DNA of 43,319 nt from NCBI GenBank assembly GCA_041690355.1, contig JAWLHK010000030.1, positions 1-43,319 of the forward strand, given 5' to 3'. Of the stretch, positions 3,414 to 28,525 are shown one piece after another. The notes below the pieces were generated by a model. That model was not told where the DNA came from and did no database searches. It saw only the letters and a list, made by a program, of their open reading frames with translations. This DNA is from JAWLHK01 sp041690355 [NCBI: bacterium] (GTDB taxonomy: Bacteria; J088; JAWLBW01). The stretch's first letter is position 1, and each line of letters opens with the position of its first letter. The translations under genes were made by a program, and so were the position numbers.

Positions 3414-3728
3414 GTTTTCCCCCAGAAGAGGCACGCCGGTGCCGGAGCGCTGAACCTCGGCGCACCCTGTCTACCTTAGCAATGGTGTGTGGGGGCGTAC
3501 AGGTACCCGACGCAGAAAGACGGGTCTAACAGCAATCCGGTCGCCTGGCAAGCACCGGCGGATTCATCGGGGTGCGCAGCGATGCCCGAAGCGAACCGCG
3601 CCCCGTCGCATGCTACGCTGGTCTTAAACCGGCCGAATCACCTCTGCCCCGCCAGCCGAGAACGGCCCGCCACGCAGGCTGATTCGACGTCCATACGCTT
3701 CCACTCCGAGACCTTAGCGAGGCGACGC
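3414..3728. other. Divergent intergenic region
   Basis: It separates the minus-strand dehydrogenase-like gene from the plus-strand amino-sugar operon and so should hold promoters for both. I see no convincing -35/-10 pair, repeat family member or RNA. The upstream in-frame extension of the acetyltransferase (from 3489) has no family resemblance and is treated as non-coding. Confidence 0.5.
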
Positions 3729-4469
3729 ATGCGACACCCTACCGCCGTGGTCGAAACCGAACGCATCGGTGCCGGTACGGTCATTCACCCTTATGCCGTC
3801 ATCGGCAGGGACGTCGTCATCGGGCGGAACTGTACGATTCACCCCCATGTCGTCCTCGAGGGGGACGTCCGCATCGGCGACGGGGTCGAAATTTTTCCCG
3901 GTTCCTACCTCGGCAAACGTCCGCAGGGCGCCGGCGCGACGGCCCGGCCGCTGCGTGATGACGGCCCGGTCGAGATCGGCGACGGCTGCGCCATCGGTCC
4001 GCATGCGGTCGTCTATCGCGACGTGCGCATCGGGCGAAACACCCTGCTCGGCGACGGCGCTGCCATCCGCGAACAGGTGCGTATCGGCGATTTCTGCATC
4101 ATCAGTCGCTTCGTCACCGTCAATTACGAAACCAGCATCGGCTCGCGCACCAAGATCATGGACCAGACCCATATCACCGGCAAGTGCCGGGTCGGCGACG
4201 ACGTCTTCATCGGCATGCTCGTGTCGACCGCGAACGATAATTCCCTGTTGACGCGGGAATATGACGAGGCCGCGACCCAAGGTCCTCAGATTGACGACGG
4301 GGCGACCATCGGCACCGGCGCCATTGTCTTCCCCTCCGTGCGGCTGGGCGCGAAATCGCTCGTCGGCGCCGGCGCCGTGGTCACGCGTGACGTCGCTCCG
4401 GGCGATGTCGTGATGGGCATGCCGGCCCGGGTCGTGCGCAGCCTGAACGTCAACAATGCGGGAGGGTGA
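3729..4469 (+). CDS. Left-handed beta-helix (hexapeptide) acetyltransferase, probable 3-amino-sugar N-acetyltransferase
   Basis: A 246-residue protein made almost wholly of hexapeptide repeats, for example IGAGTVIHPYAVIGRDVVIG (13-32), VRIGDGVEIFPGSYLG (47-62), VEIGDGCAIGPHAVVYRDVRIG (from 81) and ATIGTGAIVFPSVRLGAKSLVGAGAVVTRDV (from 192), with the usual terminal GDVVMGMPARVVR. These form a trimeric beta-helix using acetyl- or acyl-CoA. The start at 3729 is the first Met before the repeats. It is the first gene of an operon with a 3,4-ketoisomerase and an aminotransferase, so N-acetylation of the 3-amino group (the FdtC/QdtC step) is the best reading. A substrate-specific His is not identified, and O-acetylation remains possible. 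The next gene begins 1 bp after its stop. Confidence 0.8.
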   Translation: MRHPTAVVETERIGAGTVIHPYAVIGRDVVIGRNCTIHPHVVLEGDVRIGDGVEIFPGSYLGKRPQGAGATARPLRDDGPVEIGDGCAIGPHAVVYRDVRIGRNTLLGDGAAIREQVRIGDFCIISRFVTVNYETSIGSRTKIMDQTHITGKCRVGDDVFIGMLVSTANDNSLLTREYDEAATQGPQIDDGATIGTGAIVFPSVRLGAKSLVGAGAVVTRDVAPGDVVMGMPARVVRSLNVNNAGG

Positions 4470-4470
4470 C

Positions 4471-4875
4471 ATGCCGGGAACTTCGATCGACCTGCCCTCC
4501 GTGCGCGAATCGCGCGGTACGCTGACGCATCTGACCGTGCCCACGCAGGTGCCTTTCCCGGTACAGCGGATCTTCTTTCTGCACGATCTTCCTCCCGATA
4601 CCGTGCGCGGCAGACACGCCCACCGCACGCTGCACGAATTCGTGCTCTGCCTCTCGGGATCGGCCGAACTCCTGCTCGACGACGGACGCACGACGAGCGT
4701 CTGGCCCTTGGTGGCGGCTGAAAACGGCGTGCATATCCCCCCGCTGCACTGGATCACACTGCGCAACTTTTCCCCCGACGTGACGGTCGTCGTCCTGGCC
4801 TCGGCGCCCTACGACGAAGCCGATTACATCCGCGACTATGCGACCTTCCGCCGACTGGCAGGAGCGAGCGCATGA
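4471..4875 (+). CDS. fdtA: dTDP-4-oxo-6-deoxyhexose 3,4-ketoisomerase (FdtA/QdtA family)
   Basis: A 134-residue cupin that moves the keto group of dTDP-4-keto-6-deoxyglucose from C4 to C3. The family core is plain: [20 protein letters not shown] (46-65), LLLDDG, and [14 protein letters not shown] near the C-terminus. With the start at 4471 (GGGAGGG four bases upstream) the active-site histidines fall at 49 and 51, the numbering I recall for FdtA, which supports this start over the ATG at 4456. As I recall, FdtA carries Arg15 and His95 where QdtA has Tyr and Arg; here residue 15 is Arg but residue 95 is Ile (HWITL). The product configuration (galacto, for Fuc3N, or gluco, for Qui3N) is therefore not settled, with Arg15 favouring Fuc3N. 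Its stop overlaps the aminotransferase start by 4 bp. Confidence 0.88.
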
Positions 4876-5984
4876 CCGTTCGCATGCTCAATCTGCAACG
4901 CCAGCACGAGGCGATCGAGGGCGCCCTGCGCGACGCCATGGCGCGCGTACTCGCTTCGGGCGAATTCATCCTCGGGCCGGAATGCGCCGCTTTCGAACGC
5001 GAATTCGCGGCGTATTGCGGGGTGCGTCATTGCATCGCCGTGGGCAATGGCCTCGACGCCCTGCACCTCATCCTGCGCGGGCTCGGTGTCGGTCACGGCG
5101 ACGAGGTCATCGTGCCCGCGCATACGTTCATCGCCACCTGGCTGGCCGTGACGCACACGGGCGCGACACCCGTGCCGATCGAGCCGCGGGAAGGGGGCTT
5201 TCAGATCGACCCGGCCGCCGTGCGCAGAGCCCTCGGCGCCCGCACCAGAGCCATCGTCGCCGTGCACCTCTACGGCGAACCCGCCGACATGACGGCCCTG
5301 CGTGCGATCGCCAACGCGCGGGGACTGCCCCTGATTGAAGACGCCGCCCAGAGCCATGGCGCCCGATGGGACGAAAGCGTGACCGGCAGCTTCGGCAAGG
5401 CCGCCGCGTTCAGCTTCTATCCCGGCAAGAACCTCGGCGCCTGTGGCGACGGCGGCGCCATGACCACCAACGATGACGAGCTGGCCGAACGGCTGCGGCG
5501 GCTGCGGAACTACGGTTCGAGCCAGAAGTACGTCCATCGCGAGGCAGGCTTCAACTCGCGACTCGACGAGATGCAGGCGGCCCTTCTGCGCGTCAAGCTC
5601 CGGCTGCTCGACGAGTGGAACGAACGGCGGCGGGTCATCGCAGGCCGTTACCACGAAGGGCTGGCCGGTCTGCCCCTGCGGCGCCCGGAACCCGACCCCC
5701 GATGCACACCGGTCTGGCACCAGTACGTCGTGAGGACGGCGGCGCGCGACCGGTTGGCCGGCTACCTGCGCGACAACGCCATCGAGACGGGCCTGCACTA
5801 CCCGGTGGCCGTGCACCGCAGCGAAGCGTACAGCGGGTCGTATGGTAGCGTCTCTCTGCCACGGACCGAGCGTCTCGCCGACGAGGTTCTCAGCCTGCCG
5901 ATGGATCCGTTTCTCACCGACGACGAAGTCGACCGCGTCATCGAGGCCGTGCGGGACTTTCACCGGAGGGCCGTGGCGGCATGA
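4872..5984 (+). CDS. fdtB: PLP-dependent 3-keto-sugar aminotransferase (DegT/DnrJ/EryC1/StrS family)
   Basis: A 370-residue fold-type I aminotransferase. [12 protein letters not shown] (58-69) contacts the PLP phosphate, EDAAQSHGA (156-164) gives the PLP-pairing Asp157, and [15 protein letters not shown] (181-195) contains the Schiff-base Lys186. The C-terminal [14 protein letters not shown] is the usual subunit-interface segment. The length is normal for the family. Coupled by 4-bp ATGA overlaps to the ketoisomerase before it and the glycosyltransferase after it, it should transfer an amino group, normally from glutamate, to C3 of dTDP-3-keto-6-deoxyhexose, as FdtB or QdtB do. The family alone does not fix the sugar; context does. 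Confidence 0.85.
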
Positions 5985-6862
5985 CGGGGAGGCGGAACCG
6001 GGAGACCCCATCGATCAGCGTGCTGATGCCCGCGTACCAGCACGTTCGCTTTCTCGGCGAAGCGGTCGAGAGTGTCTGGCGCCAACAGGACATTCCGCTC
6101 GAACTCATTGTGGTCGACGACGGATCGACCGACGGCACCTTCGAGCTTGCCAGCGCGCTGCGGGAACGTTCGCCGATTCCCATGACGGTGGTGAAGCAGG
6201 CCAACGGCGGCACGGCAGCGGCCCTCCGGCGGGCATTCCAATTCGCACGGGGAACCTACGTGGCGCTGCTGGCTTCGGACGACCGCTTTGCCGCCGGGCG
6301 CTTCGTTTCTCAACTGGCCGCGTTCACCCCCGACGTGCAGGTGGTGTACGGCAATGGCGTGGCGTTCAGCCAGGCCGGCCCTGTCTCTGCTATCCATGGC
6401 CCCGCCGCCGTCGCCCTGCTGCGGCGCAGCGCCGCGGAAATCCGCGATCACCTGTACCGCTCGGTCGATCCCTGTCTGTACGTGCAGGCGGCGCTCTTCC
6501 GGCGAAGCTTTCTCGAAGCGATCGGGGCGTTCGATGCGGCCGGCAGCCTCGACGACTGGCCGCTCAACATCCGTGTCTTCGAGGCGCTCGCCGCAGGGGC
6601 CGGACGGTTCGCCTTCGTCGATGAAATCGTCGTGGAGTACCGCCGTCACGCTACCAACAGCGATCGCGATCTCCCGCGGCACGTCGCCCGTATCGAACGG
6701 GCCGCCCGCGACTGTGTGCCCGCGCACCTGCGCGCCGACATGCTCGCCGGCATGTACCTTCTGTTCGGCAGGAACGCCCTCTTTCGCGGGCAAGTGGCGA
6801 CGGCCATCCGCATGCTCTCCCGGGGGCTCCGCTATCGCCTGCAAGCGGGAAGCATGGAGTGA
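5981..6862 (+). CDS. Family 2 glycosyltransferase
   Basis: A 293-residue GT-A fold protein. [20 protein letters not shown] (11-30) starts the nucleotide-binding fold, [12 protein letters not shown] (42-53) binds UDP or dTDP, and ASDD (98-101) is the DXD-type metal site. [11 protein letters not shown] and [12 protein letters not shown] are typical of the acceptor half of rhamnosyl/amino-sugar transferases. There is no membrane helix. As the last gene of the operon, overlapping the aminotransferase by 4 bp, it probably adds the 3-acetamido sugar, or a sugar next to it, to a surface glycan. Donor and acceptor are inferred. Confidence 0.85.
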
Positions 6863-7322
6863 ACCACGAAGCTGGCCTTCGTGCGGCGACGGACGCCGCG
6901 CGGGGCGAGGTTCAACGCGAAACGGGGCCGATGCCGGCCAGGACGGGCGTGCCGCGGCGTGAACGCCTGACCCCCCATTCGCTTCGCTACGGGGGGCAAT
7001 GCGTCGGACGTCGGTTTTCAGCAGGTACCAAGCAAGGGCATCCCACGCGGAGCCGCGGAGTCGCGGAGAGGAAAGGACCGGAAAGGGCCTTAGCCACCTG
7101 TTCCGGATTCCATGTAAGTCCAAGCGGTACTCGAGTTCCGCCTGCCCCGCATCCCTTGTGAAAAAGCCCTTTCTTCGCTCCGCGGCCTCCGCGCCTCCGC
7201 GTGAACCCAGCCCTTCGCATACCCTGAATCCCATTCCGGTGCCCCCTCCGGGGGAACCGCATGCAGCACTCGGGCGCCGTGGAGGCGGGGGGCCCCATCT
7301 CCGAATCCGGGACAGCCACTTC
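6863..7322. repeat. Convergent intergenic region with hairpin elements
   Basis: No gene is supported between the two convergent sugar blocks. A family F hairpin lies at about 6970-7005. A larger inverted pair has arms near 7049-7080 (ACGCGGAGCCGCGGAG) and 7172-7204 (CTCCGCGGCCTCCGCGCCTC), flanking an unrelated core of about 90 bp. Folding on either strand would place a long stem here, which could stop convergent transcripts; that role is inferred. Confidence 0.7.
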
Positions 7323-8231
7323 TTACGCGCATAGCCGGATCCCGTCTCTTTCTGCCCGGTGCTCTTCGGCCAGGCGCCTGAGGTAAGCCCCGTACCCCGA
7401 CTTGGCCAGACGGGCCGCGGCGGCCTCGAGCTGGTCGACGGAGATCAGGCCCATGCGGAAGGCCACCTCTTCGGGGCAGGCCACTTTCAGCCCCTGGCGC
7501 CGTTCGAGCGTGGCGACGAAATTCCCCGCTTCGAGCAAAGAGTCATGCGTGCCCGTGTCGAGCCAGGCCATGCCGCGCCCGAGGGGCACGACCTGCAGCC
7601 GCCCTGCCCGCAGATAGGCGTCGTTGACGGCGGTAATCTCCAGCTCGCCGCGGGCCGACGGCTCGACCGCCCGGGCGATGTCGACGACGTCGGCATCGTA
7701 GAAATAGAGACCGGTCACGGCAAGCGACGAGCGGGGCCGGCTCGGCTTTTCTTCGATGCTGAGCGGACGGCCCCGGCTGTCGAGCTCGACGATGCCGAAG
7801 CGCTGCGGATCGTTGACGTGATAGGCGAATACGGTCGCCCCCTCGGGCTGCTGAGCCGCATCGCGCACGAGCCGCCCGAGGCCGTCACCGTAGAAGATGT
7901 TGTCGCCGAGGATCAGGGCCGCAGGGGCGCCATCGAGAAACGGGGCGCCGATGAGAAAGGCGTCGGCGAGGCCGCGGGGGGTCTCCTGAATCGCGTAGGC
8001 AAGCCGGATCCCCCATTGGCTGCCGTCGCCGAGAAAACTCTCGAAGCGCGCCTGGTCTTCGGGTGTGGTGATGAGGAGAATCTCCCGGATCCCCGCCAGC
8101 ATGAGCGTCGTCAGCGGATAATAGATCATCGGCTTGTCGTAGACGGGCATGAGCTGCTTGCTGCCGGCCAGCGTGACCGGGTGCAGCCGGGTGCCCGCCC
8201 CGCCGGCCAGAATGATTCCCTTGCGTTTCAT
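7323..8231 (-). CDS. rmlA: Glucose-1-phosphate thymidylyltransferase RmlA
   Basis: A 302-residue protein that makes dTDP-glucose from dTTP and glucose-1-phosphate. [16 protein letters not shown] (5-20) with Lys25 ([17 protein letters not shown]) is the nucleotide-binding signature, [10 protein letters not shown] (109-118) carries the metal Asp110, and [20 protein letters not shown] and [13 protein letters not shown] are further family blocks. The start at 8231 (ATGA overlap with the rmlB stop) gives the usual length of about 300 residues. It forms an rmlB-rmlA operon on the minus strand, facing the amino-sugar operon. No rmlC or rmlD accompanies it. Confidence 0.96.
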
Positions 8232-9289
8232 ACTTCGTCTCCCTCGAGCAGCCCACGCCGCTGCAGGTGATAGGTGTCGCCCGAAACCTCGGCGCACCAG
8301 GCGGCGTGATCGAGGTACCACGCGACGGTCCGGCGCAGTCCGCTCGCCAGGGTTTCCTGCGGCTGCCAGCCGAGCTCGTCGCGGATGCGCGAGGCGTCGA
8401 TGGCGTAGCGCCGGTCGTGCCCGGGCCGATCGGCGACGAAGGTGATGCGCCCGGCGCAGCCGGCCGCTTCGGGTGCGAGTTCCTCCAGCAGGGCGCACAG
8501 CGTGAGTACCAGGTCGAGGTTCGCGACTTCGCAGTTGCCGCCGATGTTGTACGTCGCCCCCGGACGCCCGTGATCGAGCGCTGCGGCGAGCGCGGCGCAG
8601 TGGTCGCCGACGAACAGCCAGTCGCGCACGTGTCTTCCGTCGCCGTACACGGGCAGGGGCAGGCCGCGGCGCGCTCGCGAGATCATGTGCGGAATGAGCT
8701 TCTCCGGAAACTGGTACGGCCCGTAGTTGTTCGAGCAGTGGGTCGTGACGGCCGGCAGCCCGTAGGTCTGCCCGTAAGCCCGTACCAGGTGGTCGGAGGC
8801 CGCCTTGGAGGCGGCGTACGGCGAGTTGGGCCGATAGGGCGAGTCCTCGGTAAAGTACCCGGCCTCTCCGAGGGAACCATAGACCTCATCGGTCGAAACA
8901 TGCAGAAAGCGGAACGCGCGGCGATTCTCCGGGGTGAGCGTTTCCCAGTACCGGCGGGTCGCCTCGAGCAGCAGAAAGGTGCCGTGCACATTGGTTTCCA
9001 TGAACGCGGCCGGCCCCTCGATGGAGCGGTCGACGTGCGACTCGGCCGCGAAGTGCACGACGGCTTCGGGCCGGTGCGCGCCCAGCAGGCTCTCGACGAG
9101 CGGCACGTCGCAGATACTGCCGTGGACGAAGACATGCCTGCCGGGGCCCTCGACATCCCGAAGGCTGGCCAGGTGACCCGCGTAGGTGAGCGCGTCGAGG
9201 TTGATGACGGTGAGCCCGCCGGCCACACATTGGCGGACGAAGTTGGCGCCGATGAATCCGGCGCCGCCGGTCACGAGTATCGTGCGCAT
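8228..9289 (-). CDS. rmlB: dTDP-glucose 4,6-dehydratase RmlB
   Basis: A 353-residue extended SDR enzyme that converts dTDP-glucose to dTDP-4-keto-6-deoxyglucose, the substrate of the ketoisomerase encoded at 4471. [13 protein letters not shown] (6-18) is the NAD Rossmann loop, STDEVYG (132-138) gives the Thr133-Asp134-Glu135 catalytic set, and Tyr158 with Lys162 (PYAASK) is the YxxxK pair. [17 protein letters not shown] and [13 protein letters not shown] are diagnostic for RmlB. GAGGA lies about six bases before the ATG at 9289. It is the first gene of the rmlBA pair. Confidence 0.97.
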
Positions 9290-9580
9290 CGTGTCCTCGC
9301 TCCGCAGCCCGCACCGCGGATGACGGCCGGCAGGGTTTTCCGGAGTACGTTCAGGTCGCCGCCGGAACTCCACCGGTTGCGATGTTCGAGGTCGAACGTC
9401 ATCCACTGTCATGCATTGTCATGGTTCCAGGATTTGCCGCCGGGCGTTCCGGCATCCGGGCAAGCGCTTCTCTTCCCATTATGGTTCCTGCCCCGTCCGT
9501 TCACAGCCGCGCCCCATCCGATGACGGCGGCAGGGGTTGATCCGCTTGTGGGTTCGGCGCCGTTCTGCTAGCGCGAGCGG
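9290..9580. other. Intergenic region upstream of rmlB
   Basis: It contains the leader and presumably the promoter of rmlBA, but I see no clear -35/-10 hexamers. A short imperfect duplication (TGTCATGCATTGTCATGG) lies near 9408-9422. The family A array begins at 9581. Confidence 0.5.
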
Positions 9581-15721: not shown

Positions 15722-16459
15722 TTATGAGGGGGCCAAGCCACAAGCCCTCATCGTCCCACAACATGCCAAGCCCGAATTCGCCTGGTAGAACTGTTGTTCA
15801 GCTTTGCGAACCTCATCGCGAAGTTTGCGAATTTGAATGAGGTTGGGCCCATGGCATGCCTCCACTCGAAGTGCCGACCCGCAAGGGCACTGCTTACCCG
15901 GGGTCGTGGTTGTGTTCCACTCTTGCAGTGAGGCGGGGACAGTCTCGAGGACCCTATCTAATTCAATTTGGATCTCGGCCGCTTTCCGTCCATGCGGCCA
16001 TGCGTCGTCCTGCCATTTTCCGGAGAGGGTGGCTTTATTCTGAAGCTTCAGAAAATGATGCAGGATGCCCCAGAATTTCTGGGCGTCGTTTCGTGTAATG
16101 GGATATGACGGTTGACTGGGGTCAAATCCCAGGCAGAAATACCCCTCCCGCACGATGTGTCTGGGGAAGCAGACTCCTGGTAGCTTTCTCGCCCCCGGAA
16201 ATTCACGAACCCTGACCGCACCTGGAGCAAACGGTCTTGCGGGCACCCACGAAGGGTCTGTAATCTCAATGACATACGTGGGACCCCGGCCATCGAGTTG
16301 CTCGGTGGCTACACCTGCCAAAAGCGTCGGCGTCCTTACGCAGCCGGGCAGCGTCAGGGCGTCAAGTCTCGTGTCTGACGAGCCGACCAAAAGTGAGGTT
16401 GTCACGTACTTCCGATCAGCCTCACGTTCCAGAAGAATGAGTGCAGGTGAAGGAGTCAT
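15722..16459 (-). CDS. E2-like (UBC-fold) protein with C-terminal SEC-C zinc motif, third gene of the Pycsar-like operon
   Basis: A 245-residue soluble protein. Residues 60-170 resemble prokaryotic E2/UBC-like proteins of conjugation-linked defence operons: strands YVIEITDPSWVP and VRVREFPGARKLPG, then FPRHIVREGYFCLGFDP (98-114), where His101 and Cys109 sit like the HPN-like strand and catalytic Cys of E2 proteins. HHFLKLQNKATLSGKWQDDAWPHGRKAAE follows, matching the Trp/Gly-rich helical part seen in CBASS-type E2s. Residues 191-203 (CPCGSALRVEACH) are a SEC-C zinc motif, CxCxSx6CH. The tail has another cysteine set (LACCGTMRACG). Its ATG overlaps the cyclase stop by 4 bp, so the two are translationally coupled. 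No E1, JAB or ubiquitin-like gene is present. Seen: motifs and coupling. Inferred: E2 fold and a role in tuning the cyclase or effector. Confidence 0.55.
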   Translation of the reverse strand: MTPSPALILLEREADRKYVTTSLLVGSSDTRLDALTLPGCVRTPTLLAGVATEQLDGRGPTYVIEITDPSWVPARPFAPGAVRVREFPGARKLPGVCFPRHIVREGYFCLGFDPSQPSYPITRNDAQKFWGILHHFLKLQNKATLSGKWQDDAWPHGRKAAEIQIELDRVLETVPASLQEWNTTTTPGKQCPCGSALRVEACHGPNLIQIRKLRDEVRKAEQQFYQANSGLACCGTMRACGLAPS

Positions 16460-17949
16460 TCCGCAAAGGCCCGACTCTTTACGAGCACGGGGCCCCCTAC
16501 CTGCTGTAAGACCTCCAATTTGGCTTTCTCGGCCGCCTTCTCGGGGATATGAGCCTCAACCATGTTAAAAGTCAGCTGGGTAGATTTTCCATTGGTATCG
16601 AAGAGGTCGCGAAAGTGTTCCGGGAGCTTCTTCTGCATGACCTCACCGACTGCCGTCTCGGAGCCACTGCAACGTTCCTGAGCAGCCTCCGAGCTGTAGA
16701 CTGCTTGGCCACCAGCCGCGCGAACTCGGCTGCCTTTCACCCCAAGGCGGGTGATGCTGAGCGGCCCGAACTCCAGTCCGATGGCCAAGCCGAGCACCTG
16801 CGTATCCGGTAGGATCTCTTGGATTTCTGCGAATGCGTCCCTCATCGCGCCGGCTGCCAGTAGTGCCTGGGTGATCGTCGCATTGACGTCAGTCGCTTGC
16901 GCACCCACGGCAATCATGGCATGCATGCAGTCCCCGATGTACCGAATCTTTCGACCCTCGAATACCTGGTGAATGATATTCCGCAGCTCGGTGCGGATTA
17001 CGTGGAGCGCCTGAATCGCCCCCTTCGCGTCTCCGTTCTCGATTGCTTCGCGAACGTACTTTGTAAAGCCGTCGATGTCCGCATAGATCGAGATGGCTTC
17101 GATGCGCCTCGAGTTGGCTGGGGTCAGTACACCAAATTCAAGTTGGTTCAGTGGGGGTGTCGGTCTCGAGAAGGAAATTTCCGAGAGCCGGTGCTCGGTG
17201 AGCTCCTCTTCCCAAGCATCGAGAAGCGAGTCCATTACGATGCCGAGCTGGGCGGCGGTTTCACAGTCTTCGATCTGGCCACTCGTCAATGGTGTCTGTT
17301 TCGGGTTGCTGGCTGCCCAACCTGCCCCCATCGACGATCTCGCCTGAGAACCAAGGTAAATGCCTTCCTGGTTGCCGGCGAGCAGTTTCGCGGCCTGGTT
17401 TGCGGGCTCCCCAATGAAAAGCGGTTCCCGATCGCCGTTCGTTCCGTTGTTCACGGCCAGCGAAATGCCCGACTCGATACCAATCCGAACTCTCACGTCA
17501 GGCAGTTCTTCGTGAAGCTCATCTGCCGCTTTCAGCAACCGCCACACCAAATTGGCCACCGCCACGGCGTTCTGGACCCTCGCTACTTCGCGAGAGGTAT
17601 CCTGGCCGTCGTAAGGTTTAAACACAACGAAGTGTAATCGCGCGTTCTGAAAGTCAACCCTCATGGCAGCATCCGTGTTCCGAAACACGGTATGGCAAGC
17701 CCGGACGTACAGGTTCAAAAAGCGAAGGTATCGTTTATGACTGCGTTCAGAATCCGACTTGTCGGTTTGAAGCAGCTCGCGGGCGTTCAGAATGTCGATA
17801 TAGACGTGAACACCTCGTACCAGGTAGGCCTTTCCGTTCGGGATAGAGGTCAGGTCCCGCTCTCGGACAAGGTCGACAATTTCCGGATTGGCGAGCTTCT
17901 TCTTCTCCGCTTCGCTACGCTTCCGGCTTTCTTCGATTGACCATTTCAT
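16456..17949 (-). CDS. pycC: Class III nucleotide cyclase with two cyclase domains, Pycsar PycC-like
   Basis: A 497-residue protein. Cyclase domain 1 spans about 45-205: VHVYIDILNAREL with Asp52, DFQNARLHFVVF with Asn102 where the second metal Asp normally sits, and IGEPANQAAKLLAG with Asn184/Lys188 in the VNxAAR position. Domain 2 spans about 285-425: IYADIDGFTKYV with Asp291 and IRYIGDCMHAMI with Asp340, with Arg336 in the usual substrate-Lys position and a degenerate VRAAGG where NxxxR would be. The two halves therefore complement each other and predict one active site per pseudo-heterodimer. Pycsar cyclases make cCMP or cUMP on phage infection; Arg in place of the purine-reading Lys fits a non-adenylate product, but the base is not proven. 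GAGGAA precedes the start; the gene follows the membrane effector by 10 bp. Confidence 0.8.
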   Translation of the reverse strand: MKWSIEESRKRSEAEKKKLANPEIVDLVRERDLTSIPNGKAYLVRGVHVYIDILNARELLQTDKSDSERSHKRYLRFLNLYVRACHTVFRNTDAAMRVDFQNARLHFVVFKPYDGQDTSREVARVQNAVAVANLVWRLLKAADELHEELPDVRVRIGIESGISLAVNNGTNGDREPLFIGEPANQAAKLLAGNQEGIYLGSQARSSMGAGWAASNPKQTPLTSGQIEDCETAAQLGIVMDSLLDAWEEELTEHRLSEISFSRPTPPLNQLEFGVLTPANSRRIEAISIYADIDGFTKYVREAIENGDAKGAIQALHVIRTELRNIIHQVFEGRKIRYIGDCMHAMIAVGAQATDVNATITQALLAAGAMRDAFAEIQEILPDTQVLGLAIGLEFGPLSITRLGVKGSRVRAAGGQAVYSSEAAQERCSGSETAVGEVMQKKLPEHFRDLFDTNGKSTQLTFNMVEAHIPEKAAEKAKLEVLQQVGGPVLVKSRAFAE

Positions 17950-17959
17950 CGTGAATTCC

Positions 17960-18523
17960 TCAACTCACAAGATTCAAAATAAGGGCCGCGACCAGCGCCA
18001 CCAAGCCGGCCAGTGCCGACGTCAGCCGTGCTCTCCCGAACCATTTATACTTTTTGGCGACAATCCGAGCCTGTTTGTACACTTGGAACGAGAGGTCGAC
18101 CCAAGCGGCCCGTCGGTCGAGACGAGCATATCGGTCGACATACTCTTTTCTCGGTGCGTCAGCGACCGCTCCGAAGTAGATCAACTCCTCCGGCTTATAG
18201 TCCTCGGGCCAGCCGCCTTGGTACTCGTCCTGATCCAGGCGTGCCTTCACGAGTGCGTAAATGCAGACGTACGAGGCGATCAGTAAACCCAGGCTCCCTA
18301 GGAGAGCCAAAATGACCATGGTTTTCAGCGGACAGTAGCCTGCCAAGACTTCGCTTGCCCGGACTTTGGGTGCCAGATCGGCCGAAAGCAGCACAAAGAT
18401 AGCCGCGTTCACCGGGATCAGGAAGGCACCCTTTCGGTCTGCAGCCTGAATCTGGCCATCCACGTGCAGGTTGGCCTGCTGCGCATGTTGATAGCGCAGT
18501 TGTAGTTGTTCGTCGTCGGTCAT
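17960..18523 (-). CDS. pycTM: Pycsar membrane effector, PycTM-like
   Basis: A 187-residue membrane protein. An N-terminal amphipathic helix ending QAADRKGAFLIPVNAAIFVLLS (26-47) matches the ADxKA motif that starts the Pycsar effector domain, followed by transmembrane helices at about 33-50, 67-93 and 166-185. The cytosolic loop contains PEELIYFGAVAD (111-122), like the family's LIFWG block, and a YKQARIVAKKYKW segment before the last helix. In known systems PycTM binds cyclic pyrimidine nucleotide and permeabilises the inner membrane. GGAGAA lies eight bases before the ATG at 18523, which I prefer over the GTG at 18550. It is the first gene of the operon effector-cyclase-E2-like. Confidence 0.8.
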   Translation of the reverse strand: MTDDEQLQLRYQHAQQANLHVDGQIQAADRKGAFLIPVNAAIFVLLSADLAPKVRASEVLAGYCPLKTMVILALLGSLGLLIASYVCIYALVKARLDQDEYQGGWPEDYKPEELIYFGAVADAPRKEYVDRYARLDRRAAWVDLSFQVYKQARIVAKKYKWFGRARLTSALAGLVALVAALILNLVS

Positions 18524-18583
18524 GCCTGTTCTCCACAGCTCGGCAACCACTCGATGAGCGGATAAGACCGGAGATGACAGGCA

Positions 18584-18855: not shown

Positions 18856-20019
18856 ATGGATAACGCCCTGAAACCGAATGCAATTTTGGCGGAAAATATC
18901 CGTAAGTACCGTCTAGAGCGCGGTCTTTCTCAGACTGATGCGGCAAAAACTGCAGGCCTCTCCCGGAATGCGTATCTTAATCTTGAGGCCGGCCGATCGG
19001 AACCACGATTTAGCACCCTTTTGCAGCTCGCGAACTTGTTTGGTGTGAAGCTAGAAGACTTCTTCACCCCGCCTAGGACTTTGCATTCCGTTCGTTTCCG
19101 CGCTCATAAGCAGATGACGACGAGGGATGAGATACTTCACCGCGTCGGCAGATGGCTGGACAGCTATGTCGAACTCGAACTCATCACGAAACAGGTCTGC
19201 GAATTTCCGGTCAAGAAGATACGGGGTGTCGCCTCGCGTGTCAAGAGTGGGAATCGAGCCGAAGTTGCCGCTCAAGAAGCCAGGAAAGCGTTTGGGCTGA
19301 ACGACACTGATGCTATCCGGGATATCTGCGGCCTCTTTGAGGACAAAGGTATTAAGGTCTTCGCTATGTCGGTTAAGTCGGACGGGTTCTTTGGGCTGTC
19401 CGTTGGTGAAGAAGATGGTGGCCCGGCCGTGGCTGTCAATACCGACGAACGAATTCCTGTAGAACGGCAAATATTCACTGCTGCCCATGAGTTAGGCCAC
19501 CTCATTCTTCACTTGGACGCATTCAATGTGAATAATTCGGAAGAGGATGAGCGGCAAGAAAAGGAAGCCAATCTTTTTGCAGGTTGCTTCCTCATGCCGA
19601 AGACGCTTTTCGAGTCAGAGTGGGAGGAAACGAGAGGTCTTCGCTTCGTCGATCGGGTCTTGAAGGTGAAGCGGATCTTCAATGTTAGTTACAAAACCGT
19701 ACTTTACCGTGTGGGCGAAGTAACGAACGAGCGGCAAGTCTGGGAACGCTTCAAAACGGAGTACAAAGAGCACTACCAGAAAACACTGAAGTTTGACGAG
19801 GAACCCGACGGCATTAAGGGGAGTATTCTGAACCATGGGGCACCCGCTCGGTTGGAGCCGAGGCGGTTGGACCCAGCCGACTTTATGGTTGATCGGCTGA
19901 ATCGACTTGTAAGGAAGGCTCTTGAGGACCAGTTAATAAGTCGTAGTCGAGCGGCAGAAATTCTTGGGATGCCAGTCCCACGTCTGCTCGAACTGCAAAA
20001 GTCCTGGGCGCTTCATTGA
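18856..20019 (+). CDS. XRE-family regulator fused to an ImmA/IrrE metallopeptidase
   Basis: A 387-residue protein. Residues 13-70 are an XRE helix-turn-helix (LAENIRKYRLERGLSQTDAA ... LEAGRSEPRFSTLLQLANLFGV). After a linker, residues 120-300 are an ImmA/IrrE zinc protease: TAAHELGHLILH with HELGH at 211-215 and the third ligand in EKEANLFAGCFLMP (Glu237). The C-terminal 90 residues contain a short helix-turn-helix-like stretch (ISRSRAAEILGMPVPRLLEL). Members of this class repress a neighbouring gene and are thought to cleave or release repression under stress or infection. Codon use is AT-richer than the flanks. It is followed by a PIN gene 36 bp later and is divergent from the Pycsar-like operon, so it may regulate one or both. 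Confidence 0.9.
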   Translation: MDNALKPNAILAENIRKYRLERGLSQTDAAKTAGLSRNAYLNLEAGRSEPRFSTLLQLANLFGVKLEDFFTPPRTLHSVRFRAHKQMTTRDEILHRVGRWLDSYVELELITKQVCEFPVKKIRGVASRVKSGNRAEVAAQEARKAFGLNDTDAIRDICGLFEDKGIKVFAMSVKSDGFFGLSVGEEDGGPAVAVNTDERIPVERQIFTAAHELGHLILHLDAFNVNNSEEDERQEKEANLFAGCFLMPKTLFESEWEETRGLRFVDRVLKVKRIFNVSYKTVLYRVGEVTNERQVWERFKTEYKEHYQKTLKFDEEPDGIKGSILNHGAPARLEPRRLDPADFMVDRLNRLVRKALEDQLISRSRAAEILGMPVPRLLELQKSWALH

Positions 20020-20055
20020 TCAGCGTCATTGGAGCGCGCACTTTTGGACATATGG

Positions 20056-20604
20056 ATGAAGTTGCCATCAATAAAGAACGGCCTTGTTGTGGATGCAAGC
20101 GCTCTGATCGACCTATATGTTGGTGCCAGGAGAGCCCTTCCGCTGATTAGCGCAAACATTGGCCAGTTGCATGTGCCCACGCCCATTCTCAGCGAGGTCG
20201 AACACCTCGACGAAAGACGTTGTCGTCGTCTTGGCCTATCCGTTTATCAACCGTCGGTACAGCAGCTCACGATAGCGAGTCGTCGAATCGCAGGCTTGTC
20301 GTTCGCGGATCGAATCTGCTTGACCGTCGCCTGCGAAGAAAGGTGGGTAGTCGTTACGAATGATAAGCCCCTCAGAAAGCAGTGCGTTGAAGCCAACGTG
20401 CTCGTTGCCTGGGGACTGGAGCTGCTGGTAGACTTGGTCGGTCGAAAAGTCATCCCTAAAGACGACGCCGTTGCGATGGGCAAGGCGATTCAAGAAACCA
20501 ATCCTTACATTACAGCCGGGATATTGGATCGCTACGTGAAGAAGTGCGCGGGCGCAACTCGGGAAAACCTTTTGGTGCCGACACTTTTGCGAGAGTCATC
20601 GTAG
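20056..20604 (+). CDS. PIN-domain protein, probable RNase effector partnered with the XRE/ImmA gene
   Basis: A 182-residue protein. The PIN acidic residues are visible: Asp13 (LVVDASALIDLY), Glu47 (LSEVEHLDE), Asp85 (LSFADRICLTVA) and Asp103 (VTNDKPLRK). The extra C-terminal 60 residues (QETNPYITAGILDRYVKKCAG) are longer than in minimal VapC toxins and resemble PIN proteins that follow XRE-ImmA/IrrE genes. I use the ATG at 20056 (GGA seven bases upstream); a TTG at 20029 would add nine residues. Likely a toxin held in check or activated by the upstream regulator-protease; the RNA target is unknown. Confidence 0.82.
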   Translation: MKLPSIKNGLVVDASALIDLYVGARRALPLISANIGQLHVPTPILSEVEHLDERRCRRLGLSVYQPSVQQLTIASRRIAGLSFADRICLTVACEERWVVVTNDKPLRKQCVEANVLVAWGLELLVDLVGRKVIPKDDAVAMGKAIQETNPYITAGILDRYVKKCAGATRENLLVPTLLRESS

Positions 20605-22231: not shown

Positions 22232-25200
22232 TCACCCCACCCCGCCGCGCAGCAGCTCTTTCGCCTCGGTCAGCAGGCGCAGCACGGTGAGGGTGAAGCG
22301 GTGGGCCGACTCGTCGGTGGCCAACACGGCCAGCGACATCTTTTCCTGGTCCTGCATGTTGTCGAGCACGGTGTCGGTGACGCGTTGCGGGAAAATGCCG
22401 TGCATGACTGTTTCGGGGGTGTGGTTCTGCACCTGGGCCATGACGTCATCCTGCCGGCTGATGCGTTCGGCGATGGTTTTCGCGAACTGGAGCTGGTCGT
22501 TATCCCCCACCTCGGCGCCGAAAATCTCGTTGAGCGCCTGAATGATCTCGGCCAGCCGCTTCTTCTCGGGCTCGTGGGCCTTGCCGGTGCCGATGGCGCT
22601 GCCGGGCTGCAGGGGATACGGATCATGGTCGTCGCCGAGGCGCAGCGCGGCTTCGTCGTGTTTCGTAAGCCGGTAGTGCGTCAACTGCAGTTCGGCGACG
22701 TCGACATCCTCGGTCTCCAGCCGGTCCACGCGCAAGAGCGGATACAGGTGCCGGGCGTAGACGCAGAGCTGCTCGAGCTCGCGGTCGTCATATTCCACGA
22801 TCTGCGAGAGAAACTCGTACAGCCGCACGAAGCTCATAAGGTTCTTCTTGAACAGATCGAGCTGGTCAATTTGCTCGCCGGCCACCTTCAAATCATGTTC
22901 CGCCCGCTTCAGGCCGATGCTGTCGCCGTTGGTGTCGGCCGTACGCTTCGCCTCGCGCGCGCGCTGGGCCGCCTCCTGCGCCTCGCGGTAGCGCAGCTTG
23001 AAGCGATCCTTCGCCGGCTGGCAGTAGAAGGACAGTTTGCTCGCCGGCGCCTTGGGGTCGAAGAAGGCGAGCGCGAAACTGCGCACTTCCTCCCAATGAT
23101 AGATCCCCTCGGCGTCGAGTGTTTTCTGCACGTCGTAGACGGTCTGCGGGTCCGAGACATCCGCCAGCTCGGCCTTGTTGTAGTAGGGGAGAAAGGCGTC
23201 GAGAATGTCCTGCGGGTCGTTGAAAAAGTCGAGGATGAACGTCTCCTTGCCCGGAAACGTGCGGTTGAGCCGCGAGAGGGTCTGCACGCAGTCGACCCCC
23301 TGGAGCTTCTTGTCAACGTACATGGCGCACAGCTTCGGCTGGTCGAAGCCGGTCTGGTACTTGTTGGCCACGATCATGACGTTGAAGTCCTGTGTGTCGA
23401 AGGCCTCGGCCAGGTCGCGCTTGTTCAGCCCGGGGTTGAGCAAGGTGCTCGTCTCGCTCACCTCTTCGGGAATCACGCCGTCGGGGAGCACGGTGCCCGA
23501 AAAGGCGACGAGCGGGTGCACGTCGGCATAGCCCATCTCCTTCACGTACTGCTTCACGGCGAGCTGGTAACGCACGGCTTCCTGGCGGCTGCCGGTGACG
23601 ACCATGGCCTTGGCCTGGCCGTTCAGCAGGTGACGCACGTGCTGCCGGAAGTGCTCGACGATGACCTCGACCTTCTGGCGGATGTTGTGCGGATGCAGCC
23701 GCACCCAGCGGGCCAGCTTCGTGCGCGCCTTCTTCGAGTCGACCTCTTCGTCTTCCGCATGCGGATGGGCGATCTTCCACGCCGTCTTGTAGGTGGTGTA
23801 GCGCTGCAGCACGTCGAGGATGAACCCCTCTTCGATGGCCTGCCGCATCGAATAGATGTGAAACGGCGCCGGCTTGTTCTCGGCGCCCGGCGGCTGCGAC
23901 GGGTCGGGTACGCGGCCGAACAGCTCCAGCGTGCGCGCCTTGGGGGTCGCGGTGAAGGCATAGTAGCTGATGCGATCATGGGGCCCGCGGGCCTGCACGG
24001 CGGCATCAAGCAGCTCTTCGGCGCTGATCTCTTCACGCTCGGGATCTTCCCCCTCGGCCTCCTTCTCGCTCGTCAGGATCGCTTTCAGCTTACTCGCCGA
24101 AGAGCCGGTCTGCGACGAGTGAGCCTCGTCGGCGATGACCGCGTAGCGCCCCGAGGCGAGCTTCGGCTGCTTGTTCAGCGCCTCGAACAACGCGGGAAAG
24201 GTCTGAAGGGTGACAATGATGATGCGCGTCTGTTCGGCCAGGGCCTCGGCGAGCTGCTCAGATTTGCTCTGGTTGCCGAGATCGCGGCTGATGGGGCGCA
24301 CGACCCCCTGCGCATGTTCAAACTGGTAAATCGTGTTCTGCAACTGGCTGTCGAGCACGGTTCGGTCGGTGACGACGATGACCGAGCTGAACATGCGGTT
24401 CCCCGCGTCGTCGTAGAGCGAGGCGAGCTGGTGGGCCGCCCAGGCGATGGAGTTCGACTTGCCCGAACCGGCGCTGTGCTGCACGAGATAGCGCCGTCCC
24501 GCCCCCTCGGCGCGCGTGGCGTCGACGATCTTGTTCACGACCTCCCACTGGTGGTAGCGCGGGAAGATCATCGTCTCTTTGGTGACCGGTTTGCCGTCGA
24601 ACCCCTCCTTCGTCTCTTTCTGGAGGTGCAGGAAACGCCCCAGCACCTTGAGCCAGGCGTCGGGCTGAAAGAGTCGCTCCCACAGGTAGCCCACGGCATA
24701 CTGCGTGTCGTCGGCGGGGCGGGGGTTGCCGGCACCCCCGTCTTCGGTCCCCCGGTTGAAGGGGAGAAAGAAGGTGTCGTCGCCGGCCAGCCGGGTGGTC
24801 ATGGCCACCTCGCTCTGCCCCACGGCGAAGTGCACCAGGGCGCCCCGCTTGAAGGTGAGCAGCGGTTCGGGCTTGCGCGTGACGGGATCCTTGACCGGGC
24901 GGTCTTTGCAGTACTGGCGCTTGGCGTTCTCGACCGACTGCTTGAACTCGCTCTTCAGCTCGAGGGTGGCCGTGGGGATGCCGTTCACGAAGAGCACCAG
25001 GTCGAGGCGCGGGTTGTACTCCCCTTCGCGCGCGTGGGGCGAGTAGGAGACCTCGGGCACGACGCGAAGGCGGTTGGCGCGGTAGCGCCGCAGGCTGTCG
25101 GGGTTCATGCCGTGATCGGGCTGAAAGCTGCACAGCTCAATCTTCACGCCGGGCACCTTGAACCCGTGGCGCAGCACATCGAGGGTGCCGTCCTGATCGA

Positions 25201-25426
25201 GCGCGCGCACGACCTTCTGCACCAGCACCGATTCGGGGTTGTTCGGGTTGCTCTTGCGGAATTTCTCCCACCGGTCAGGCCAGGCTTCTTGAAAGTAAGC
25301 GATCAGATCTTCGGGGTAGACGGCTGCCGCGCGGTCGTACCCGGATGCCTTGCCCACCAGCCACCCCTGGGCGGCCATGGCGCCGATTATGTCCTGCTGA
25401 AAGGCCAGCTCCCGGCTGTCAGCCAT
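22232..25426 (-). CDS. hsdR: Type I restriction enzyme, R subunit
   Basis: A 1064-residue protein that, with HsdM and HsdS, translocates and cuts unmodified DNA. The nuclease site is Asp142 with Glu156-Leu-Lys158 (PRLDLVLFVNG ... TLELK). The SF2 motor has Walker A HSAGSGKS (317-324), DEAH (433-436), and FTATPK. GYQTGFDQP-like (KYQTGFDQPKLC) and QTLSRLNR are later helicase motifs. The C-terminal helical part binds HsdM. The full length and all motifs suggest an active enzyme. Its ATG lies inside the hsdS 3' end (8-bp overlap). The order hsdM-hsdS-hsdR on one strand suggests a single transcript. Confidence 0.96.
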   Translation of the reverse strand: MADSRELAFQQDIIGAMAAQGWLVGKASGYDRAAAVYPEDLIAYFQEAWPDRWEKFRKSNPNNPESVLVQKVVRALDQDGTLDVLRHGFKVPGVKIELCSFQPDHGMNPDSLRRYRANRLRVVPEVSYSPHAREGEYNPRLDLVLFVNGIPTATLELKSEFKQSVENAKRQYCKDRPVKDPVTRKPEPLLTFKRGALVHFAVGQSEVAMTTRLAGDDTFFLPFNRGTEDGGAGNPRPADDTQYAVGYLWERLFQPDAWLKVLGRFLHLQKETKEGFDGKPVTKETMIFPRYHQWEVVNKIVDATRAEGAGRRYLVQHSAGSGKSNSIAWAAHQLASLYDDAGNRMFSSVIVVTDRTVLDSQLQNTIYQFEHAQGVVRPISRDLGNQSKSEQLAEALAEQTRIIIVTLQTFPALFEALNKQPKLASGRYAVIADEAHSSQTGSSASKLKAILTSEKEAEGEDPEREEISAEELLDAAVQARGPHDRISYYAFTATPKARTLELFGRVPDPSQPPGAENKPAPFHIYSMRQAIEEGFILDVLQRYTTYKTAWKIAHPHAEDEEVDSKKARTKLARWVRLHPHNIRQKVEVIVEHFRQHVRHLLNGQAKAMVVTGSRQEAVRYQLAVKQYVKEMGYADVHPLVAFSGTVLPDGVIPEEVSETSTLLNPGLNKRDLAEAFDTQDFNVMIVANKYQTGFDQPKLCAMYVDKKLQGVDCVQTLSRLNRTFPGKETFILDFFNDPQDILDAFLPYYNKAELADVSDPQTVYDVQKTLDAEGIYHWEEVRSFALAFFDPKAPASKLSFYCQPAKDRFKLRYREAQEAAQRAREAKRTADTNGDSIGLKRAEHDLKVAGEQIDQLDLFKKNLMSFVRLYEFLSQIVEYDDRELEQLCVYARHLYPLLRVDRLETEDVDVAELQLTHYRLTKHDEAALRLGDDHDPYPLQPGSAIGTGKAHEPEKKRLAEIIQALNEIFGAEVGDNDQLQFAKTIAERISRQDDVMAQVQNHTPETVMHGIFPQRVTDTVLDNMQDQEKMSLAVLATDESAHRFTLTVLRLLTEAKELLRGGVG

Positions 25427-26774
25427 GCACGGCCTCGCGGGCGGATGATTTCAATGCCGTGTCGGGGGGCGGTTGCCAGCCCCGCACGTCGATCTTCCCG
25501 GTGACAGCGGCGGAAATGAGGGCGGAGCGGCGTTCTTGAAGGAGGTGGACTGCTTGCTCAGCCGTCATCACCAACATATCCATTGCGTTAGAAGCAGCTT
25601 CCAAATGGTCCACTATTCGTTCCTGCTCCCCAAGAGGAGGGACAGCGAGGCTGTAATTTCTGACCGTGGCCACATTGACATGAGGCGACGTTGCCCCGAC
25701 CGTGTCTACGTCGCCTTGCTTATAAACCGCATCTGAATTCAAAAGGAACATCAGATAGGAGGGCGAGATACCCTCAGCTGCCCGAAACTGCATCATACGC
25801 TGCCCCAAGGCATAACGTCCTGATTCCGGAACCACAGCTGCATGACCCCACCGTTCACCTTCTCGGCCATAAACGATGTCCCCTTCATCAAGGCTCGCGC
25901 GTCGCGTCCGAATAATGTACTGATCCTGATCCAACCTGTACATCTGCTCTCGCTTTAAGACCCCACGATCAATGTCCGCCGTCCTGATGACAAGATACTC
26001 ACCATCTGGCTCGTATATCGGCGTTTCGTGAGGGCAATCCACGATCATCGATGTCACATGCTTCAGTCTGGTCACCTCCCAATGCGCCGGCACCTCGCCA
26101 AGCCACTCGACTCCGGAATCCTTCATGGGCACGGTGGGGTCGAGCCCCTTGGTCACGGCATGGGAAATCACCGCCTGCCGCTTTTCCTGGAGCAGTTCGA
26201 TGAGCCGCTGCTGCTCGGTGATCAGCGCGTCGATACGCGCCGTTTCGTGGTCGAGGAAGCCGGCGATTTGGGATTGTTCGCCGTCGCTGGGAATCAGTAC
26301 CGGCAGCCATTTCATGTCGGCATATCCAATGGACTGTCGAAGGCCACCACCCATGGAGTAGAAGACCTTCGTTAAGTCGTACGCCCGAAACAAGTAGTTG
26401 GAGAACCTAGGGTTGATGCCCCGGCTGACAACAGCGAGATAGGCCGATGTTATGATTCCTTTCTTACCAACAATTGCACTGCGGAGGCTTCGTTTATCGT
26501 TCTGAAGGTCAGTGAGACGAAAAACAACGTCGTCTTCGTATACGATCTGGTAGGTCTCAAAAGACTCTGGAAGCAAGCCTTCAAGGGTGTTGATGTCCTT
26601 GTCGACGATCGCACCGTAGCTCAATGACAGGAGATTCGACTCTTGCATCCCAATGTTCTTTTCTTTTCGCTCTCGAAATTGGCTGAAGAACGGGACAACT
26701 TGCCAATGACCAGGCACGGGCCCTACCCACTCGACCCCCGAATCCTTATACGCCTCGTACTTCGGGAAGCTCAT
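25419..26774 (-). CDS. hsdS: Type I restriction enzyme, specificity subunit
   Basis: A 451-residue protein with the two-fold layout of HsdS. TRD1 begins at [16 protein letters not shown] (9-24) and TRD2 at [16 protein letters not shown] (217-232). The conserved spacer helices are [19 protein letters not shown] followed by [19 protein letters not shown] (171-208), and the C-terminal [16 protein letters not shown] followed by [20 protein letters not shown]. Each TRD reads one half of a bipartite target; the target sequence cannot be derived here. TRD1 and TRD2 have lower G+C than the helices, typical of exchanged TRD cassettes. It overlaps hsdM by 4 bp and hsdR by 8 bp. Confidence 0.96.
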
Positions 26775-28525
26775 GCCGACAGCTCCTCGATCATCTGCTT
26801 GATGCGGTCGGTGCAGGCTTTCAGGTCGCGGTCGATCTCCTCCAACGGGCGCGGCGGCTTGAACTCGTAGAAGTGGCGGTTGAACGGGATCTCGAAGCCG
26901 ACGATCCCCACTTCGCCGTCTTTCTCGTCCCGCTTGCTCTCGTCGATCCAGGCATCGGGCACATGGGGCTTCACTTCGCGCTCGAAGTAGTCATCGACCG
27001 ACTGGCCGAGCGGCACGTTCTCGGAGTCGCGCAGGGCGGGGTCGGCTTCGGGTTTCCCCTTGTTCTTCCCCTTGGTCGCGATGACGACCTTCCCCTTCTC
27101 GTCGCGCAGGGGGCGCTCGACGGTGATGCGCCGGTAACCGAACGCCTCGACCGGGAAAATTTTGCTCTTCGGCCCCTCTTCAAAGCGCCCGTAGAGGCGC
27201 ACGAGGTCTTCGATCTGCTCGTCGGCGATGTACTGGCGCTTGCTCCCTAGCGACTTGCGCATCTTCGTGAAGTGCTGCGTGCCGTCGATGAGCTGCACCT
27301 TGCCCCGCCGCACCTTCGGCTTGTGGTTCGAGAGAATCCAGACGTAGGTCGCGATGCCGGTGTTGTAGAACATGTCGGTGGGCAGGGCGACGATCGCCTC
27401 CACCAGGTCGTTTTGCAGCAGATAGCGCCGGATCTCCGATTCGCCGCTCCCCGCGCCGCCGGTGAACAGGGGCGAGCCGTTCAGGATGATGCCGATGCGC
27501 GAACCCCCTTCGCGCGGGTCGCGCATCTTGCTCACCAGGTGCAGCAGAAAGAGCATCGACCCGTCTGACACGCGCGGCAGGCCGGGGCCGAAGCGGCCGG
27601 CGAACCCTTTCTTGGCGTGTTCGTCCTTGATCTGCTTTTCGACCTTCTTCCAGTCGACCCCGAACGGCGGGTTGCTGAGCATGAAGTCAAATTTTTCGTT
27701 CGGCAGAAGGTCGTTCGAGAGGGTGTTCTCTTTCTTGATGTTGCCGACCGCCTGTCCCTTGATGAGCATGTCGGCCTTGCAGATGGCATACGATTCGGGG
27801 TTGAGCTCCTGCCCGAACAGCGAAACGGTGACCTTCTGGCTCACCTGCTGAATGTACTCCTCTGACTCGGAGAGAAAGCCCCCCGTGCCGGCCGTGGGGT
27901 CGTAGATGGTGACGATGCCGTTCGGCTTGAGTTTGTCGTCCTGCCCGGTGAGCACGAGCGAGGTGGTCAGGTGCACGATGTCGCGGGGGGTGAAGTGCTC
28001 TCCGGCCGTCTCATTCGAACTTTCGGCGAACTTCCGGATGAGCTCCTCGAAGATGATCCCCATGCCGAAGTTGCTGATCCGTTTCGGGCTGAGATCGACG
28101 GCGGCGAACCGCTGGATGACCTGGTAGAGCAGGTTGTTGGCGGCGAGCTGCTCGACGTAGTCTTCAAAGTGGAAGTGTTCGAAGATGTCGCGGCCGTCGG
28201 CGCTGAACGACTGCACGTAGCTCATCAGGTCCTGGGCCGGCTGGCTGTCCGAGATCGTGCCCAGCGAGAGGGGCGAGGCGTTGTAGAACTGCTGCCTGGC
28301 TTCGCGCAGCAGAATCTTCTCGCGCGCCGCGTCGGGTTTCTTCTGGTGCTCTTTGGCCGCCGCCAGCACCTTCTTCTTCGTGGGCTCGAGCACGCACTCC
28401 ATGCGGCGCAGCAGCGTGAAGGGGAGAATGATGCGGCCGTACTGGGATTGTTTGAAGTCGCCGCGCAGCAGGTCGGCGATGGACCAGAGAAACGCGGCGG
28501 TCTGGGAGTGGTTTTCGGTGTTCAT
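26771..28525 (-). CDS. hsdM: Type I restriction enzyme, N6-adenine methyltransferase subunit
   Basis: A 584-residue protein. The N-terminal HsdM_N domain ([20 protein letters not shown] ... [17 protein letters not shown]) is followed by the methyltransferase: EHFTPRDIV (176-184), motif [10 protein letters not shown] (209-217) binding S-adenosylmethionine and motif IV NPPFG (285-289) catalytic. The start at 28525 ([14 protein letters not shown]) is the conserved beginning; the longer frame upstream lacks homology. It protects host DNA and forms the M2S1 core. The stop overlaps the hsdS start (ATGA). Full length, no visible defect. Confidence 0.96.

Follow-up and report, generated by a model that had tools for sequence, protein, structure and literature searches.

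An E2-like gene directly behind the two-domain cyclase of Pycsar operons, and a candidate E1-independent conjugation of the cyclase tail

A 43,319-nucleotide stretch of DNA from the bacterium JAWLHK01 sp041690355 (GenBank assembly GCA_041690355.1, contig JAWLHK010000030.1, positions 1 to 43,319; 'the window' below) encodes a Pycsar (pyrimidine cyclase system for antiphage resistance) operon in which the cyclase gene, pycC, is followed directly by a gene for a protein of the ubiquitin-conjugating (E2) type. The same pair recurs in the same order in other genomes and on plasmids, and the cyclases that precede such E2s carry a short motif close to the C terminus. We propose, with a probability of about 0.6, that this is a Pycsar system of the clade A type with a dedicated E2 that would bind, process and conjugate the PycC tail independently of an E1. 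The proposal builds on the identification of the E2 by sequence, its coupling to PycC, a conserved catalytic Cys and His, a low-confidence tail in the model of PycC, and similar tails on the CD-NTases (cGAS/DncV-like nucleotidyltransferases) of CBASS (cyclic oligonucleotide-based antiphage signalling systems).

The E2-like protein and its cyclase

The E2 gene starts at an ATG and encodes 245 amino acids. Its start codon and the stop codon of pycC share four bases (ATGA, 16456-16459), an overlap already claimed in a sequence-only reading of this DNA, and the two genes are presumably translationally coupled through it. That reading had also assigned the product an E2-like core; Cys97, His101, Cys109 and the stretch WPHGRKAAE are where it placed them, and the profile searches that it proposed recover the E2 family. 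Pfam PF20298 (E2-ntca) matches with 44.1 bits (cut-off 27.5, E = 3e-11) and the top PADLOC match is an E2 model (3.2e-32), while PF20272 (E2-Crich) reaches 24.4 bits, under its cut-off of 27. The SEC-C zinc motif that it had seen at the C-terminal end was not recovered: Pfam SEC-C (PF02810) gives no match at E <= 1 in the window protein, and the CPCG...C region resembles E2-Crich. The related CBASS E2 of locus L058 does have a SEC-C call, and three other E2s carry the term in their annotated names. A profile comparison of window-type E2s with nine E2s ending in a CPCG/SEC-C-type region gives a probability of 98.1% (E = 1e-13); eight of the nine come from CBASS-type loci, one of which has lost its cyclase, and the ninth is from a Pycsar locus. 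By profile, then, the two E2 groups are homologous, and the proposed likeness to E2-only short CBASS operons holds. Because of this comparison and the profile matches the family is called E2 by sequence; support from the fold is consistent with this, not decisive. A chance open reading frame (ORF) or a misread frame was considered for the E2 gene and ruled out by the E2 profile matches and the regular adjacency to PycC described below.

In the non-redundant set of 26 intact E2s, the window protein included, the active-site Cys and His are conserved throughout (26/26), and a Phe precedes the Cys in each (26/26). The Asn of the HxN (HPN-like) motif is a usual, not an invariant, feature of E2-ntca: the position holds N in 22, Q in three and V in one, which is the window protein. 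The AlphaFold model of the window E2 is of moderate quality [pLDDT (predicted local distance difference test) 72, pTM (predicted template modelling score) 0.65]. A sequence search of solved structures with E2 alignment A1 and the L058 E2 found nothing at E <= 0.001.

The neighbour had been read as a Pycsar cyclase, and profile matches bear this out: the PADLOC PycC model is hit at 1.9e-167, and the protein is a class III cyclase, not a CD-NTase. The PycC of locus L002, to which it is related (Table 1), aligns over its full length and with few differences to the solved PaPycC (PDB: 6YII); a near-identical relative of PaPycC therefore has an E2 directly behind it. The L002 E2 would begin at TTG and has no entry in the incomplete PLSDB gene table. 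PMC11224242 describes clade A PycCs as two-domain cyclases and gives cyclic UMP (cUMP) as the product of clades A-D. The window PycC would belong to clade A, as judged from its two domains and its similarity to the L002/6YII-like PycC rather than from a tree, and by clade its substrate is probably UTP, converted to cUMP. The gene upstream is PycTM (PADLOC 2.2e-21; Pfam PF18967 36.5 bits, cut-off 27.2), so the operon holds a PycC cyclase and, from the PycTM/PycTIR effectors, a PycTM. No member of the E1, JAB or ubiquitin-like families occurs among the 16 window ORFs scanned (10.7-30 kb), in line with the sequence-only reading.

Recurrence of the pair

A tblastn search gave 17 plasmid records, of which 14 were examined, as were two more that another search had turned up; the remaining three equal one of the examined records in coverage, identity and E-value. 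A genome scan gave 14 loci, all with a PycC ORF immediately before the E2 and in the same orientation (14/14); it used a three-sequence E2 alignment and is therefore biased towards PycC-linked E2s. In the joint set, which includes the window, the genes are adjacent with PycC directly upstream of E2 in 34/34 locus records. These represent 33 distinct loci, some near-identical, because L060 and L020 show one and the same locus. One partner is partial in three loci (PycC in L007 and L016, E2 in L022), and L005 is excluded from the count as an insertion sequence interrupts its PycC; there an IS3-type element (2042-4812) splits the cyclase gene and the E2 behind it remains open. The survey of homologues suggested by the sequence-only reading thus finds the catalytic Cys retained and PycC as the constant neighbour, and neither of the two outcomes that the reading had named as refuting it came up.

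Class-wide searches with PF20298 are less biased than the three-sequence scan. Among 369 genomes of Gammaproteobacteria, PF20298 exceeds its cut-off in three, and the same three contain a full-length two-domain PycC (>700 bits); 102 other gammaproteobacterial genomes yield only weak cyclase matches (<=37 bits). Among 385 genomes of Alphaproteobacteria, E2 and PycC are both found in the same two. By coordinates the genes are adjacent in all five positive genomes. The genomes at the centre of the sets, G005 and G012, are known positives, one per set, so the independent cases are two Gammaproteobacteria and one from the Alphaproteobacteria. The sole E2 below the cut-off (G688) adjoins a CD-NTase.

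Of 22 locus records, near-identical ones among them, 16 could start the E2 at an ATG, GTG or TTG that overlaps the pycC stop by 4 bp, as in the window; three others offer only CTG at that place, and the last three have no such overlap. The effectors around the pair vary, PycTM or PycTIR lying before or behind it, and E2 distances correlate with PycC distances (Spearman 0.71, 24 pairs). The annotation of the plasmid loci, which is incomplete, names no E1, JAB or ubiquitin-like gene (two unannotated loci are uncounted). Viral contigs contain no relatives of the window E2, of E2 alignment A3, of a Chryseobacterium PycC or of CBASS E2 alignment A7, and phage records gave no match with the E2 of L003 (Methylorubrum extorquens CM4).

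Two further arrangements were seen beside the pair. At L001 (1733-3356), L072 (468-2080), L073 (214-1832) and L077 (4593-6259) a second, short cyclase and a TIR or nucleotide-binding protein lie next to PycC-E2, which looks like a stack of two Pycsar modules. On roseobacter plasmids (L006 1340-3111, L008 1398-3157, L075 323-2082) genes for a cyclic-nucleotide-binding protein and a WYL protein diverge from PycC-E2, hinting at another effector or regulator there.

The cyclase tail and a possible conjugation mechanism

PycCs with an E2 behind them end in R/Q/T/E/N - P/A/S - H/Y/F followed by 2-11 residues without a common sequence; examples are RPHS, RPYT, RAHF, RSHA and TPYA, and the window protein has SRAFAE. 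The broad pattern [RKQTNE][PAS][HYFW] is present within the last 20 residues of 27/27 non-redundant PycCs (shuffled tails: mean 4.3, maximum 11, 2000 trials). Two stricter patterns were counted on the same set: R[PAS][HYFW] occurs in 21 (shuffle mean 1.7, maximum 7; 1 and 0 in the two preceding 20-residue stretches) and [RKQTNE]P[HYW] in 16 (mean 1.2, maximum 6; 0 and 0). The motif is found in 0 of 7 PycCs or relatives that have no E2 in the fetched flanks; none of these controls is a two-domain PycC, and one (L084) lacks a recognised effector next to it. In the model of the window PycC the tail (Table 1) is the sole stretch of at least three residues under pLDDT 50. Five tails (L006, L008, L072, L073, L077) have the motif doubled (RAH...RAH). 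A Shine-Dalgarno origin of the motif was thought unlikely on reading, as the codons and the distance to the start vary.

Similar tails occur beside the related E2s of E2-only CBASS. These loci were retrieved with the CD-NTase-linked L058 E2, and nine of 12 plasmid records were examined. KPW followed by 2-4 residues forms the C terminus in 7/7 (the L058 cyclase and six annotated nucleotidyltransferases). The ORF before an Enterococcus E2 ends in ISPWSR, and at a hold-out, the one new locus in 103 genomes, found after KPW had been noted, the ORF before the E2 ends in SKPWGMHE; these two ORFs are taken as CD-NTases by position and look. Together, [KS]PW tails are present on 9/9 assessable cyclases beside E2-only CBASS-type E2s, the Carnobacterium locus standing outside the count with a transposase at the expected cyclase position. 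A Chryseobacterium (Bacteroidota) plasmid encodes PycTM, a single-domain PycC and a SEC-C E2, and this PycC ends in NRPWLKRS. With the CBASS E2 profile, 80 of 103 genomes gave a match, full-length in one only; the other 79 were set aside, having only a short CPCG stretch, mostly in frames of ~900 residues that are probably SecA.

We infer from this a sequence of binding, cleavage, thioester formation and conjugation, with effects on cUMP and on defence. PycC would make a cyclic nucleotide that signals to PycTM. The E2 would grip the flexible C-terminal tail of PycC through the short motif (polar or basic - Pro or small - H/Y/F); Cys109 could then attack the tail behind or near the H/Y/F/W residue, freeing the few trailing residues and holding PycC as an acyl-enzyme. 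The variability of those residues fits an end that is cleaved off. The acyl group of PycC may be passed, in the absence of E1, to a lysine of PycC, of the E2 or of another protein, and conjugation might tune cyclase output, an effect that has been reported for CD-NTases conjugated by Cap2. Cap2 conjugates the CD-NTase through its C terminus, and Jenson et al. describe a terminal Gly or Ala on the cGAS-like enzymes that occur with full-length Cap2 and Cap3 (PMC10097602, accessible part).

Several points weigh against this reading. The window E2 has H-I-V in place of H-I-N, the active-site Asn being gone. Foldseek with the E2 model gives no match at E <= 0.001, E2 entries taking ranks 1, 2 and 4. 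The structural neighbours are of the expected kind with middling scores: UBC or UEV folds make up nearly all of the 50 listed VIA-align rows, with Z <= 7.5, a range that the tool calls common and that may reflect a mere common arrangement. The window tail, RAFAE, is atypical. The broad pattern arises by chance in the two preceding 20-residue stretches in 4/27 and 10/27, and the patterns were chosen after the tails had been looked at (one hold-out excepted). Because two-domain PycCs are missing from the controls that lack an E2, the presence of an E2 is confounded with PycC clade. In addition, Jenson et al. report other architectures without conserved C-terminal residues (PMC10097602, accessible part), which tells against the proposal if E2-only operons were included among them; one may guess that a motif set back from the C terminus by a few residues might escape a test of C-terminal conservation.

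The best of the alternatives, which we consider unlikely, is that the E2 is a non-catalytic binder like the ubiquitin E2 variants (UEVs), holding the PycC tail to inhibit or oligomerise the cyclase with no covalent chemistry. The top VIA-align rows are Tsg101 UEV domains (Z 7.5), some in complex with PTAP or PSAP peptides, and a binder of short Pro-containing peptides would fit such a tail; the missing HxN asparagine of the window E2 points the same way. UEVs, however, are not known to have a catalytic Cys, whereas the Phe-preceded Cys is kept in all intact E2s. It is distinctly less probable that the tail motif serves some other role (localisation, a protease site, a dimer contact) and is found with the E2 without being linked to it in function. 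The evidence is one of association and PycC tails could be clade-specific, but a similar tail on CD-NTases and on the single-domain Bacteroidota PycC, each with an E2 behind, and its absence from all seven E2-less PycCs or relatives argue otherwise. Slightly lower again we place an E2 that relies on a host E1 and conjugates a modifier encoded elsewhere to phage or host proteins, PycC being only its operon mate or target: ThiF-type enzymes are common in bacterial genomes, but neither the scanned window ORFs nor the names at the plasmid loci include an E1, a JAB or a ubiquitin-like gene, and the tail motif tracks the E2. That the E2 gene is chance or neutral cargo is hardly credible, and is refuted as far as sequence can do so, for although operon order in defence islands is fluid, the two genes are adjacent in 33/33 distinct loci, with frequent start-stop overlap and the same genomes found from both directions.

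If the E1-independent conjugation of the PycC tail is correct, it would be an instance of ubiquitin-like conjugation without an E1 and without a beta-grasp modifier, and the shared tail tag on unrelated cyclases would become a predictive signature for E2 substrates; this signature is the most testable part of the proposal. How PycC is switched on could likewise be addressed with single mutants. A wider interpretation, to which we give slightly less than even odds, is that E2-only enzymes form a portable, E1-free, tail-specific conjugation module that bacteria have added to two unrelated cyclase superfamilies. In this view any cyclase with a C-terminal tag of the K/R-P-aromatic type would become its own ubiquitin-like modifier, which the E2 would cut and ligate in a sortase-like manner, and one mechanism would control CBASS and Pycsar signalling alike.

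Genomic surroundings and comparison with known systems

Table 1. Coordinates of the E2-Pycsar operon and its divergent neighbour in the window.
Feature	Position	Strand	Remarks
E2 gene	15722..16459	(-)	E2-ntca UBC-like domain, putative catalytic Cys109, His101, C-terminal Cys-rich region
ATGA start-stop overlap of E2 and pycC, 4 bp	16456..16459	(-)	E2 ATG and pycC TGA
pycC, two-domain (clade A type) Pycsar cyclase	16456..17949	(-)	PADLOC PDLC00762, 41% identity to L002 PycC
PycC low-confidence (disordered) C-terminal tail	16459..16518	(-)	residues 478-497, end SRAFAE, pLDDT<50
PycTM, Pycsar effector	17960..18550	(-)	10 bp before pycC
HTH + ImmA/IrrE (Peptidase_M78) protein	18856..20019	(+)	divergent from operon, profile matches

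The HTH (helix-turn-helix) and ImmA/IrrE gene is followed by a PIN-domain gene (together 18856-20604, plus strand), both divergent from the operon; the former is possibly a regulator of the operon or an antitoxin for the PIN gene behind it, and ImmA/IrrE genes also lie close to the E2 operons of L003, L061 and L062. HsdR, HsdS and HsdM of a Type I restriction-modification system (22232-28621, minus strand) are near the Pycsar operon and make this region a defence island. Close to the island (4872-9412) are genes that by eye resemble sugar aminotransferases, glycosyltransferases and dTDP-sugar-type genes, perhaps a surface polysaccharide cluster. Scans of the window for Rfam families and tRNAs gave no matches.

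The sequence-only reading knew of no Pycsar operon with an E2 partner. No description was found in the literature searched, a collection that lacked the key papers Tal 2021, Burroughs 2015, Burroughs and Aravind 2020 and Yan 2024; nor is one given in the accessible parts of PMC10952713, PMC10419184, PMC12948488, PMC9117128, PMC7159879, PMC12804361 and PMC10449767. The association is nevertheless visible in databases, because the E2 family is in Pfam and RefSeq calls six of the neighbours 'E2 domain-containing protein'. E2-ntca may, at a guess, stand for nucleotidyltransferase/cyclase-associated, in which case the authors of the name knew of the link. The E2 domain is thus already known, and what is new, as far as checked, is its link to Pycsar as a rule and the shared tail.

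The operon resembles clade A Pycsar (PaPycC, 6YII) in its two-domain PycC with PycTIR or PycTM. As published, Pycsar is a two-gene system, and its clade A consists of cyclase and receptor (PMC11224242, in whose accessible text the word 'ubiquitin' is absent), whereas the operons described here regularly include a third gene, that of the coupled E2. Should clade A Pycsar prove to be a three-gene system, studies of its cyclases that leave out the E2 would overlook a regulator. Type II CBASS with Cap2 and Cap3 (E1-E2 and JAB) is alike in that its cyclase is conjugated through the C terminus, as would be the case here; it differs in using a terminal Gly or Ala (PMC10097602, accessible part) and in having an E1 and a JAB, neither of which was found among the scanned window ORFs. 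The E2 gene in the operon, together with the short conserved tag by which its product probably grips the cyclase, suggests that protein tagging controls the Pycsar alarm as it does a second, unrelated alarm.

Another close counterpart is type II short (E2-only) CBASS, where a homologous CPCG/SEC-C-type E2 lies directly behind a cyclase with a similar tail and, again, no E1 or JAB is named nearby. In the Serratia E2-only CBASS studied by Yan and colleagues, the E2 reportedly processes and conjugates the CD-NTase C terminus; that cyclase is of the other superfamily, and the reported mechanism parallels the one proposed here. The two systems differ in what the E2 follows: in E2-only CBASS the cyclase is a CD-NTase with a K/S-P-W tail, whereas here it is a class III cyclase whose tail is mostly R-[PAS]-[HYF].
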